Source: Shouchella patagoniensis (GTDB lineage Bacteria; Bacillota; Bacilli; Bacillales; Bacillaceae_D). Taken from it: DNA of 64,000 nucleotides. Under the pieces are notes generated by a model. The model saw nothing but the letters and a program-made list of their open reading frames with translations, ran no database searches and was not told the DNA's origin. Location of the stretch: positions 2,602,565 through 2,666,564 of the forward strand of contig NZ_KV917377.1 of NCBI RefSeq assembly GCF_002019705.1, read 5' to 3'. This document shows, piece by piece, positions 18,763-21,635 of this stretch (position 1 is the stretch's first letter; the number at the start of each line of letters is the position of its first letter). The translations under genes were made by a program, and so were the position numbers.

Positions 18763-20697
18763 TTATTCTTCGTCAAGAGACAGGCCGTCGACATGCTTTC
18801 TTGACATCGTATTTTTTGTTTTGCGGTACTCTTTGCTCTTAAAGATAATGTCAAAATCGTAGTCTGCCGGATACAGCTCACTTGCCGATATCGCTAGCTC
18901 GAGCCGCTTATGGTTCACCGTTTTCTTCTCGCCTTTTATTTGCACCACATAGTTCCCCGATCCGTCCGGACCCGTATAAACAATCGCGGTCTCTCCAGTT
19001 GCTGCCACTGTTACATTGTCACCTTGACTAAATGCTTTTACCGTGTCTTCGGTACCTTTTCTTTTTTTCGTTGATCGCACGTATTTATTGATAATCACCT
19101 GGCGTTTGTAGTCGTCATGATTCAGTTGGTCTTTGCTGAACCGATCTGTATAAACAGACGCTTCTTTATAAGCCACTTCATGAGCGCGTTCAACCATCGA
19201 TGGATGCATGCCTAACTTTAAAGCAATATCAAATGCTTGGCTTTTCCCTGTTTTTCCGAGGAGTAGCCTGTACGTTGGGGCAAGAGTTTCCAAATCAAAC
19301 TCCATTGATGCATTAAGAAAACCTGACGTCGTATGAGCGAATTCTTTCATTTCGCTATAATGGGTTGTCGCAAACAACGTTGCACCCTTTTGATACAATT
19401 GCTCTAAAATGACAATAGCAAGTGCCATTCCTTCTGCTGGGTCGGTACCTGACCCAAGTTCATCAATCAAGACAAGAGACCGGTCATTTGTCTGGCGCAT
19501 GATCTCGATAATGTTGACCATACGTGAACTAAATGTGCTTAAATTATCAGTAATGCTTTGTCCATCACCAATATCAACAAACACTTGACCGAAAAGAGCC
19601 GTTGAGCTTCCTTTTTCAACCGGTATTGGTAGACCTGATTGTGCCATGAGCGTTAACAGCCCTATTGTTTTTAGAGTGACTGTTTTTCCGCCAGTATTCG
19701 GACCCGTAATGACAAGCGCACGTTCGTTTTCACCAAAGCGAATGGAAAGCGGGACTGCATTTTTACCCAGCATTGGATGACGTGCTTGTTTTAAGTCAAT
19801 ATGATACGCCTCATTTACAGTCGGGGCGATCGCATCAATTGCCTGGCTGTACTTCGCTTTTGCAAAAAGCACATCATAGTGGTGCATCACTTCAATTGCA
19901 ATCTGAATTCCATATTCATAGGAGAGCAACTGTTCAGTTAGCTCATATAAAATTCGTTCAACCTCTGCTTCTTCTGCCATTTTCATAATCGAGATTTCTT
20001 CTTGAAGATCGCTTAATACGGTGGGTTCCATAAACAGTGTTGAACCAGAAGAAGACGCGTCAAGCACCGTTCCATCTACTTTTGCGCGATACTCCTTTTT
20101 GATCGAAAGCACAATACGGCCATTTCTTTCCGCTGAGGTCTTATCTTGTAAATAAGGTGTGTAGCGTTTGTTTTTCACAAGGCTTTGCGCCTTGTCTTTT
20201 AACTTATCTCGTAACGTCACCAACTGGCGTCGCAAGTACGCAAGATCACTTGATGCATGATCATCGATTTGCCCGTGACGTAAGCAACCAGCAATTGCTG
20301 TTTCAAGTGGCTCCATCTCTTCAATTGAAAAAGCATAACTCGAAACCACAGGCGCAATTCCTTCTTTGTCTTTCATAAACGCCTTTAATTTACGACAATG
20401 ATCTAGGAATGATAGCACGTGCACGAACTGATCGGCACGGACGTACAATCCTTTTTTTGCCTGCTCTAAATACTGATCGATCTCTCCAAGACTATGGATT
20501 GGCACACTCCCACTTCTAGTAAGGATACCAAGCGCTTCAGTAACCTCCGCTAATTTCTGTTCAACTTGTTTTCTGTCTTGTAGAGGTTGAAGATCGATTA
20601 TTGTTTGCTTCCCGGCCTCGGTGCGGGCGTAAGACGCCATTTCAGTTAAAATATCATGAAAGCCTAGTGCTTCAAATGCTTGTTGATTCATTTTCAT
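18763..20697 (-). CDS. MutS2-family ATPase lacking the Smr domain
   Basis: 644 residues against about 785 for housekeeping MutS2. The N-terminal core/lever region (about 1-310) is followed by the ATPase: Walker A GPNTGGKTVTLKT, signature STFSSRMVNI, Walker B LVLIDELGSGTDPAEG and H-loop ATTHYSEMKEFA. After a shortened coiled coil comes a KOW-like segment (GDNVTVAATGETAIVYTG...VNHKRLEL), then a 45-residue tail ending HVDGLSLDEE; the Smr nuclease-like domain is absent. B. subtilis MutS2 recognises collided ribosomes through this core. Two ATGs (20697 and 20691) lie after GGAGGG. The gene has a long leader with a small ORF and a terminator, typical of translation-stress control. Confidence 0.85.
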   Translation of the reverse strand: MKMNQQAFEALGFHDILTEMASYARTEAGKQTIIDLQPLQDRKQVEQKLAEVTEALGILTRSGSVPIHSLGEIDQYLEQAKKGLYVRADQFVHVLSFLDHCRKLKAFMKDKEGIAPVVSSYAFSIEEMEPLETAIAGCLRHGQIDDHASSDLAYLRRQLVTLRDKLKDKAQSLVKNKRYTPYLQDKTSAERNGRIVLSIKKEYRAKVDGTVLDASSSGSTLFMEPTVLSDLQEEISIMKMAEEAEVERILYELTEQLLSYEYGIQIAIEVMHHYDVLFAKAKYSQAIDAIAPTVNEAYHIDLKQARHPMLGKNAVPLSIRFGENERALVITGPNTGGKTVTLKTIGLLTLMAQSGLPIPVEKGSSTALFGQVFVDIGDGQSITDNLSTFSSRMVNIIEIMRQTNDRSLVLIDELGSGTDPAEGMALAIVILEQLYQKGATLFATTHYSEMKEFAHTTSGFLNASMEFDLETLAPTYRLLLGKTGKSQAFDIALKLGMHPSMVERAHEVAYKEASVYTDRFSKDQLNHDDYKRQVIINKYVRSTKKRKGTEDTVKAFSQGDNVTVAATGETAIVYTGPDGSGNYVVQIKGEKKTVNHKRLELAISASELYPADYDFDIIFKSKEYRKTKNTMSRKHVDGLSLDEE

Positions 20698-20745
20698 TTT
20701 CCCTCCTAATTTTTCCTGGCCTCCATAAACGCATGCCTAGACGAC

Positions 20746-20780
20746 AAAAAAGCCGCCATGAACAAAGCGCTCATGACGGC
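20746..20780 (-). terminator. Leader terminator (attenuator) upstream of the MutS2-like gene
   Basis: Stem GCCGTCATGA / TCATGGCGGC (10 bp with one G-U pair), nine-base loop, followed by six Ts, all between the promoter and the start of the MutS2-like gene and about 50 bases before its ATG. Read-through would be needed for expression. Confidence 0.75.
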
Positions 20781-20968
20781 AGGGTATACGTATGGTGAGA
20801 GGCGCTGATCACGGTTTTTTAAATACAAAAAAACCATGACACCTCTGCCATAGCAATAACTTCCCTTTTGGCTATGATGCGTGTTCTTAACTGATACCAA
20901 CATGCGCACAAATAAACAAACGTCGCTTCACCACGTTTTTTTGCATGTAGGCTATCCAATTTGTTGGA

Positions 20969-20992
20969 TTAGTTAAGAACAACCAGATACAT
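20969..20992 (-). CDS. Seven-codon leader peptide MYLVVLN
   Basis: AAAGGAG, eight bases, then ATG TAT CTG GTT GTT CTT AAC TAA. The last four codons lie in the 5' arm of a perfect 10-bp stem, so a ribosome stalled on them would prevent that stem from forming. Too short for homology; the call rests on ribosome site, position and structure. Confidence 0.55.
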   Translation of the reverse strand: MYLVVLN

Positions 20993-21034
20993 AAAAAGAT
21001 CTCCTTTTAAAAGGGAATAATTGATTTCACACTT

Positions 21035-21063
21035 ATCTTATGAAATGAGGAGTTATTTGTCAA
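21035..21063 (-). promoter_or_regulatory. Sigma-A promoter of the MutS2 leader transcript
   Basis: On the minus strand TTGACA (21063-21058), 17 bases, TAAGAT (21040-21035): one mismatch from the ideal vegetative promoter. It lies between the GNAT gene stop and the leader, so the MutS2-like gene has its own transcription unit. Confidence 0.8.
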
Positions 21064-21089: not shown

Positions 21090-21635
21090 TTAATTATTCC
21101 ATCTCCCCATGACAACAGTATGGTAATAATGACCATCTGAAAGCTTTTTATCATTTTCTAAAATACCTTCAATCTTAAAACCAAACTTTTTATAAAGATT
21201 TATCGCTGGAGCGTTTGTTTCTAGAACACTTAACGTTATTTTTTTTATTCCGATTGCATCAGCCCATGCAATCGATTCTTTTAGAAGGTTTGTTCCAATA
21301 CCGAAGCCCCAATAATCTTTTAAAACACCTACTCCAAACTCTACTTTATGGGCAAATCTTTTTAATTGATTTCCTTCGCATCTTGAAAAGCCAACAATGT
21401 TCTCGTTAACTGTTGCAACTAGAAAAAGGTTTTTTAGATCTTTCGAGTCTGTCTTAATTAATTGCTCAAAATCACTTGTATCTAAGTATGCTTCCCCTTT
21501 TTCTCTATTTAGATTTTGTGTTTCACCATCAATCTGCAATCTAATTTCAGATAAATTTTTTGCATCTTTATTACTAGCAGGTCTTATGATGAAGCAGGTC
21601 CCGTTCACATTAAATGTCTTCTGAAGAACAACCAT
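21090..21635 (-). CDS. GNAT family N-acetyltransferase
   Basis: 181 residues; AAGGAGGT seven bases before ATG. GNAT features: FIIRPASNKDAKNLSEIRLQ, VATVNENIVGFSRCEG, the acetyl-CoA loop GVLKDYWGFGIGTNLLKE and LSVLETNAPAINLYKKFGFKIEG, closest to the YhhY/phosphinothricin-like group. Substrate unknown. It is AT-rich compared with neighbours. No terminator is obvious, but the MutS2 leader promoter follows directly. Confidence 0.85.
   Translation of the reverse strand: MVVLQKTFNVNGTCFIIRPASNKDAKNLSEIRLQIDGETQNLNREKGEAYLDTSDFEQLIKTDSKDLKNLFLVATVNENIVGFSRCEGNQLKRFAHKVEFGVGVLKDYWGFGIGTNLLKESIAWADAIGIKKITLSVLETNAPAINLYKKFGFKIEGILENDKKLSDGHYYHTVVMGRWNN

Follow-up and report, generated by a model that had tools for sequence, protein, structure and literature searches.

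A conserved leader with the predicted anatomy of a transcription attenuator precedes an SMR-less MutS2 paralogue in Shouchella patagoniensis

We analysed a stretch of 64,000 nucleotides (hereafter the window) from the Bacillaceae genome of Shouchella patagoniensis. A leader on its minus strand is probably a ribosome-mediated transcription attenuator for a second MutS2 ATPase, SMR-less and with a KOW-like part, and the system would be the MutS2 counterpart of HflXr. This reading draws on the anatomy of the leader, its conservation and compensatory changes, its association with the paralogue and the other genes found behind it, all of which are shown below.

Anatomy of the leader and of its protein

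By its MutS2-like protein, the closest named relative of this organism is Bacillus sp. JCM 19041 (93% identity); the orthologues of Shouchella oshimensis and S. miscanthi are 61-62% identical. A GNAT acetyltransferase gene (window 21090-21635) lies directly upstream of the leader on the same strand. GNAT genes, apparently of different subfamilies, also directly precede the leader in three other loci (L010, L045, L046; the Geomicrobium cases by eye). The features of the locus are as follows.

18763..20697, minus: MutS2-like paralogue without SMR domain; the ORF as listed starts at 20697 (TIGR01069, 28-sequence alignment, structure model)
21063-20698, minus: leader of the MutS2-like paralogue, with promoter, uORF, stem, NusG-type pause motif and two terminators
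21035..21063, minus: sigma-A promoter, TTGACA (21063-21058), 17-nt spacer, TAAGAT (21040-21035); 10/12 match
21001..21006, minus: Shine-Dalgarno sequence of the uORF, AAGGAG, 8 nt before the ATG (sequence; Shine-Dalgarno sequences of orthologous uORFs by eye)
20969..20992, minus: uORF of seven codons, MYLVVLN* (MxxxVLN* or a six-codon form in 107/110 orthologue loci)
20971..20980, minus: 5' arm of P1, GUUCUUAACU, predicted anti-antiterminator, overlapping codons 5-7 and running into the stop codon (fold, RNAalifold, compensated variants)
20954..20969, minus: P2, small hairpin after the stop codon, AUCCAA...UUGGAU (own-versus-swapped z -6.6)
20897..20951, minus: P3, lower stem CCUACAUGC / GCAUGUUGG around the pause hairpin (own-versus-swapped z -21.6)
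20918..20938, minus: putative RNA polymerase pause hairpin, AAACGU...ACGUUU
20910..20915, minus: TTATTT, NusG-type pause motif, TTNTTT (motif enrichment in 71 leaders)
20883..20892, minus: 3' arm of P1, AGUUAAGAAC (fold, RNAalifold, own-versus-swapped test)
20874..20891, minus: predicted antiterminator strand GUUAAGAACACGCAUCAU, P1 3' arm plus flank (pairing with T2)
20826..20854, minus: terminator T1, GCTATGGCAGAGGTGTCATGGT plus U tract (early terminator in 61/71 leaders)
20746..20780, minus: terminator T2, GCCGTCATGAGCGCTTTGTTCATGGCGGC plus U tract (late terminator in 71/71 leaders)

Much of this anatomy had been described in a first-pass annotation, and it is borne out here: the promoter TTGACA-17-TAAGAT agrees with the consensus at 10 of 12 positions, the seven-codon ORF MYLVVLN is found at 20992-20969 with AAGGAG 8 nt upstream, and the 10-bp stem overlapping the end of that ORF joins GUUCUUAACU (20980-20971) to AGUUAAGAAC (20892-20883). 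The long second hairpin is likewise present and overlaps a first terminator; the strong terminator ends about 50 nt before the gene, and the annotation is refined in that the leader has two terminators in tandem. RNA folding, which the annotation had suggested as a check, gave -114.5 kcal/mol for the leader and -82.05 +/- 4.89 for shuffled sequences (z -6.64; 0/100 as low). The leader is predicted to carry a translated short uORF with its own Shine-Dalgarno sequence, as in vmlR- and hflXr-type attenuators.

The gene had been assigned to a MutS2-type ATPase, and its product of 644 residues indeed matches TIGR01069 with 614.7 bits (cut-off 400) over residues 4-514. The protein probably begins at the second ATG (20691) rather than at 20697, as most orthologues begin there. 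Besides this gene, the genome encodes a canonical MutS2 (786 residues) and has a third MutS match that is more distant. A tree of 37 rows has a branch, supported at 99/99, that keeps all 27 rows of this paralogue (type 1) on one side; canonical MutS2 (five rows) and a second paralogue group (four rows) each make up one side of a branch as well. The Walker A motif (GPNTGGKT, G332-T339) and residues D412, E413, G417, T418, D419 and P420 are invariant in 28 aligned sequences, and so are G559, D560 and V562. The structure model (mean pLDDT 84.5) contains a five-stranded small KOW-like barrel at 561-603 (pLDDT about 83), and at the sequence level the alignment with the KOW region of B. subtilis is weak. 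An SMR domain gave no Pfam match at E 0.001, and only about 40 residues follow the KOW-like part: a conserved tail of that length (LYPxDYDxDIIFxSKexRK) stands in place of SMR, and there is no long coiled coil. The best Foldseek match is 9a5o, an integrative model of B. subtilis MutS2 with YabR (33%), and the second is 7qv3, MutS2 of the collided disome (chain w, 40% identity over 518 columns).

The MutS2 of B. subtilis is described as splitting stalled ribosomes, a function in which the ATPase is most needed: a Walker B mutant is as inactive as a deletion and erythromycin-sensitive, and KOW and SMR mutants show intermediate activity and very modest sensitivity (PMC10897456). Because these mutants keep intermediate activity, an SMR-less MutS2 could work, especially if overproduced on demand. 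The loss of SMR and of the coiled coil also makes a changed target possible.

Conservation and pairing within the leader

We gathered 110 orthologue loci from two collections in which some organisms occur twice (e.g. L005/L033, L010/L045, L014/L053). The 106 leaders holding the exact string TTCTTAACTAA, L005 set aside, were dereplicated to 72 by shared 8-mers. Of these, 71 were used in the terminator, pairing and pause tests (L057, whose 3' arm is changed to GATAAGAAC, was dropped) and 68 in alignment A1, from which L060, L065 and L080 were dropped for their unusual length.

Conservation of the leader among the orthologues is far above chance. The gene is preceded in 107/110 loci by a uORF MxxxVLN* with the exact string TTCTTAACTAA; in two of them it counts six codons from the start that the script chose. 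The peptide varies at residues 2 to 4, and V-L-N is fixed. The other three loci are no counter-examples, because two are compensated and the third is truncated at a contig end. L046 has AAT in place of the Asn codon AAC, a synonymous change, and its partner arm has gone from GTTAAGAAC to ATTAAGAAC, which retains both peptide and pair; L101 has the uORF MSVSVSN, with GTTTCTAAC facing GTTAGGAAC; and in the truncated L082 the 3' arm is still visible. Conservation of the mini-ORF and the terminator had been proposed as a test of the annotation, and the leader passes it: uORF and stem, exact or compensated, occur in 109 of the 110 loci, the other being the truncated one, and a terminator stands before the gene in each of the 71 dereplicated leaders. 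A promoter with at least 10/12 matches lies within 110 nt before the uORF in 55/72 dereplicated leaders (3.2 expected from shuffles).

The ORF is also retained in 36 further loci, with ATG as start codon in 32, TTG in 3 and GTG in 1, and TAA as stop codon in 31, TAG in 4 and TGA in 1. These comprise 33 of the 40 class-level loci treated below together with L195 (a MutS2-side leader), L196 and L145; the scan pattern requires a VL core, and the list omits the seven of the 40 with a non-VLN-like uORF (tet(M), L245) as well as L197. Matches to the uORF pattern alone in G234 and in contig 9 of G237 look like chance, and a plus-strand match in G221 is a reverse reading of its own leader. IFVI is a macrolide arrest motif of the erm type; no macrolide arrest motif (RLR, IFVI or RYR-type) occurs among the 18 peptide forms of the 106 orthologue leaders or in MYLVVLN.

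The fold, the alignment and a few compensated variants point to an anti-antiterminator stem, P1, overlapping the uORF, with little variation otherwise. RNAalifold predicted nine P1 pairs from the 68 leaders, one of them changed on both sides in one sequence, and in L054 an A-U pair replaces G-C at the stem end. The arms read GTTCTTAACTAA in 69/71 leaders and ATTCTTAACTAA in the other 2, in a set built from leaders holding TTCTTAACTAA. Since the arms hardly vary, P1 has almost no species specificity: own and swapped arms gave -12.74 and -12.68 (71 leaders; z -1.7, 313/5000 permutations as low). Such near-invariance could also reflect a conserved peptide or a protein-binding role. Two loci with other genes, L245 and L197, retain the stem in a different reading frame, which favours pairing over peptide, and the near-fixed VLN of the other leaders favours peptide over pairing. 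P2 and P3 are species-specific in the same own-versus-swapped test (z -6.6 and z -21.6, 0/5000 permutations each; 71 leaders), in which a control pairing gave z -1.8.

The pause motif TTNTTT occurs 10-45 nt before the 3' arm in 57/71 leaders, 49 of them at 20-28 nt, and is missing from that interval in the other 14; 100 shuffles gave 14.7 +/- 3.2 leaders with a maximum of 25. The same hexamer, TTATTT, is given as the NusG pause motif of vmlR (PMC9226507).

The predicted antiterminator would be mutually exclusive with P1 and with the intrinsic terminator. In the window, the antiterminator strand pairs with T2 at -13.8 kcal/mol, a value reached by 32/2000 shuffled strands. Across the 71 leaders, the P1 3' arm with its nine following bases pairs better with its own T2 than with the T2 of other species (mean -11.61 versus -9.38 kcal/mol; z about -9.5, i.e. 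-9.6 and on repeat -9.5; 0/20000 permutations as low). Of the 25 leader windows tried, the others gave z from -1.64 to +3.90, save for an overlapping window at +6 (-5.9). No stretch tested other than the P1 3' arm is complementary to T2 in a species-specific way, and we therefore take this arm as the antiterminator. The permutation tests treat species as independent though they are related, so that the better argument lies in the several distinct types of flank that change together with the terminator: AATG/CATT, AAGCAT/ATGCTT, AGGC/GCCT and TCGTTC/GAACGA. Pairing with T1 was not clearly species-specific (z -0.2; -2.2 in the best of 16 windows); CATAGC and GCTATG pair strongly and are invariant, and covariation is therefore unable to test that pairing.

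Genes found behind the leader

To follow the leader across genomes we used a covariance model (R1) limited to the nine P1 pairs, since the MAFFT alignment of P3 was poor. Among 397 genomes of the order, 130 have both the leader and the type-1 protein, 1 the protein only, 4 the leader only and 262 neither. The protein was called at E below 1e-140, with the addition of a 55%-identical fragment in G343; the copies of G155, G343, G344 and G139 are fragmentary or interrupted by a stop. In G229, the one genome with the protein only, a leader can be recognised by eye that has diverged in both stem and uORF, which brings the paralogue behind a leader to 131/397 genomes, 130 by the model and one by eye. 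The leader-only genomes have interrupted gene copies (G049, G142), a methyltransferase behind the leader (G041) or a decayed gene (G046). Three pattern matches in viral contigs had no leader anatomy by eye. Relatives covering at least 80% of the query occur in 11 records of the plasmid collection, with short-paralogue candidates in records of Cytobacillus, Paenibacillus and Acetoanaerobium, two of which were inspected. In the Clostridia, Acetoanaerobium noterae (L296) has, by eye, a short MutS2 paralogue behind a uORF MSVIVLL*.

The second paralogue group (38-40% identity) is present in 42/397 genomes and has its own diverged leader, with no R1 match among the 397 order genomes. A script recovered the uORF core in 19/23 loci, 18 of them MSAVGSK*- or MSGVVSK*-like and one (L154) with another reading; the remaining four have a uORF by eye (MSGVVSK, MSGVGIN, MSAVVSK, MSIAGVN). 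The P1 3' arm has an exact downstream complement of 10-14 bases in 15/19 loci and of only 7 in 4, and TTNTTT lies 16-20 nt before the arm motif in 18/19. In L294 GCAGGT faces ACCTGC, versus GTAGGT with ACCTAC in leaders such as L280. Beyond the terminator, this group (L150-L156, L280-L295) has a stretch that could pair with the P1 3' arm by complementarity, and in some loci, by eye, another is complementary to the 5' end of the transcript; these complements may influence how well the read-through mRNA is translated or how stable it is.

The leader is not confined to MutS2 genes. Within the order, G212 has a second leader before a GNAT gene and G111 before an alpha/beta hydrolase gene. In a class-level sample, 79/398 genomes match the leader model, 10 of them from the order, and we examined 40 loci from 35 of the other 69. 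These precede MutS2-like genes (24), BpsA-like genes (7), tet(M) (6) and one gene each of the GNAT, LmrB-like MFS and APH-like kinds; families were assigned by a search on one or two representatives each and otherwise by eye from the translated start, and the LmrB-like case is the first large ORF behind the leader. Over both samples, GNAT, methyltransferase, alpha/beta hydrolase, LmrB-like MFS and APH-like genes are found behind the leader in L195, L196, L197, L245, L248 and L267. Genes with a BpsA_C domain (branched-chain polyamine synthase-like) follow it in L249, L250, L251, L253, L257, L258 and L263, and L145 holds a decayed gene, by eye a BpsA-family remnant.

The six tet(M) leaders (L240-L244, L279) match the model more weakly (42.1-43.2 bits; E 1.3e-5 to 2.6e-5 per genome). 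They share a seven-codon ORF, MRQGILK*, a long-range stem and an antiterminator-like flank, an arrangement like that of the MutS2-like leaders. Pairing of the P1 arm and flank with the terminator of tet(M) was computed at -8.6 kcal/mol for 19 bases and at -12.1 kcal/mol for 24 bases, the latter value being reached by 37/2000 shuffles. The peptide MRQGILK was absent from the open-licence literature searched. Translation inhibitors, the class of stimulus put forward in the first-pass annotation, are supported by the genes that share this leader, above all tet(M).

A wider proposal, for and against which we find ourselves evenly poised, is that these leaders form one homologous "VLN-stop leader" family, a dispersed translation-arrest regulon across Bacillota that would take in SMR-less MutS2 paralogues, BpsA-like, GNAT, methyltransferase, hydrolase, APH-like and LmrB-like genes and tet(M). 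The true sensor ORF of tet(M) would then be MRQGILK* and not orf12, which we take to be a 28-codon ORF farther downstream in the tet(M) leader; the short MutS2 would represent a new class of antibiotic-tolerance factor, one that splits ribosomes and is inducible, and the leader would have revealed the other unknown genes as drug-response genes. The leader would serve as a finder, any gene behind it being a candidate translation-stress or resistance gene, with functions to test for the BpsA-like, GNAT, methyltransferase and hydrolase genes, and tetracycline sensing by the widespread tet(M) would have a new reading.

Proposed mechanism, alternatives and known systems

We infer stalling, read-through on induction, an inducing drug and ribosome splitting, as follows. 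In unstressed cells, ribosomes would complete the seven-codon uORF and leave; P1 would form while RNA polymerase pauses at TTATTT, the 3' arm would be hidden, and the terminators would stop transcription. Under an antibiotic or another arrest of translation, a ribosome stalled on the uORF would cover the P1 5' arm, and the freed 3' arm with its flank could pair with the loop and arms of T2, which would then be unable to form, so that the gene is transcribed. Its product, the SMR-less MutS2 ATPase, would most likely act on drug-stalled ribosomes by splitting or rescuing them. Whether moved or inherited, this leader may also control dispersed translation-stress and resistance genes, tet(M) included.

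The terminators might instead simply end the GNAT gene that comes immediately before the leader on this strand of the window, with the uORF there by chance. Conservation effectively refutes this: the leader is kept across many genera, mostly with its own promoter, and the letters of the terminator change with the flank of the P1 3' arm. The size and strong covariation of P1-P3 and the almost invariant P1 arms would also suit a ligand-binding riboswitch or a protein-binding RNA that senses its molecule directly, the uORF being incidental. We find this improbable, given that Shine-Dalgarno sequence, start and stop are kept though the start varies among ATG, GTG and TTG and the stop among TAA, TAG and TGA, and that P2, P3 and the loop sequences vary widely, unlike an aptamer core. 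Rfam searches gave 0 matches in the window at the gathering score; at a permissive threshold the leader gave five matches, all of them sub-threshold and unrelated in kind.

A leader that reads amino-acid starvation, through a ribosome stalled on VVLN by scarce charged Val, Leu or Asn tRNA, would agree with the fixed V-L-N of the uORF peptide. It is very improbable: no amino-acid biosynthesis gene was found among the representative genes scanned behind the leader, tet(M) has ILK, GSK or VSK prevails in the second paralogue group, and L245, L197 and G229 retain the stem with another frame or peptide. Finally, the attenuator could be real and the protein act on DNA, in anti-recombination or repair, with translation stress merely the trigger. 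MutS2 was for long described as an anti-recombination protein in literature abstracts, and the SMR domain and the coiled coil are missing here. Yet the KOW-like barrel of the model and the invariant G559, D560 and V562 speak against such a role, as do the other genes behind the leader, which point to translation and drugs, and the account of MutS2 as lacking mismatch-recognition domains (PMC10897456); we regard it as unlikely.

If an attenuated ribosome-splitting factor is the right reading, the presence of a MutS2 paralogue behind this switch in 131/397 genomes would make inducible ribosome splitting a general strategy; HflXr is the one case that we found in print linking such splitting to antibiotic tolerance. 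The system also tests whether MutS2-type splitting works without the collision-binding SMR domain. In the open-licence literature on MutS2 with attenuation or paralogue, no title among the matches listed named the leader or the paralogue.

The first-pass annotation had likened the leader to erm and ABC-F genes. In its predicted logic it belongs with the antiterminator leaders of vmlR and hflXr, which attenuate transcription, and not with translation attenuation of the erm type. The leader of tet(M) in Tn916-type elements is similar in its known transcription attenuation (PMC5418344, PMC9154091), and orf12 is named as the tetM leader peptide (PMC9154091); it differs from the leader described here in its arms, GTATTCTTAAATAAAC / GTTTAAGAATAC, and in its product, a ribosomal protection protein. 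B. subtilis MutS2 (PMC10897456; structures 7qv3 and 8qpp) shares the core/lever, clamp and ATPase and, by the structure model, a KOW-like part, whereas the present protein is a paralogue without SMR or long coiled coil, with its own tail and under a predicted attenuator, in a genome that also has canonical MutS2. The vmlR leader of B. subtilis likewise combines a short uORF, an anti-antiterminator, an antiterminator, the TTATTT motif of a NusG pause and a terminator; its uORF is MIN* (MDN, MDK or MRK in other Bacilli), one terminator is described, and the product is an ABC-F protein (PMC9226507).

A further close parallel is Listeria hflXr with its rli80 leader, where a second copy of a ribosome-splitting factor again lies behind a uORF, anti-antiterminator, antiterminator and terminator, and which is induced by lincomycin and erythromycin (PMC6310831). 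It belongs to the HflX family, and its uORF has 14 codons with an RLR motif (PMC6310831), whereas the leader described here has seven codons ending in VLN* and two terminators and is found in many genera before several kinds of gene. As with HflXr, the MutS2-like protein appears to be a second copy of a splitting-factor family under a predicted attenuator, with the canonical 786-aa MutS2 encoded elsewhere in the genome.
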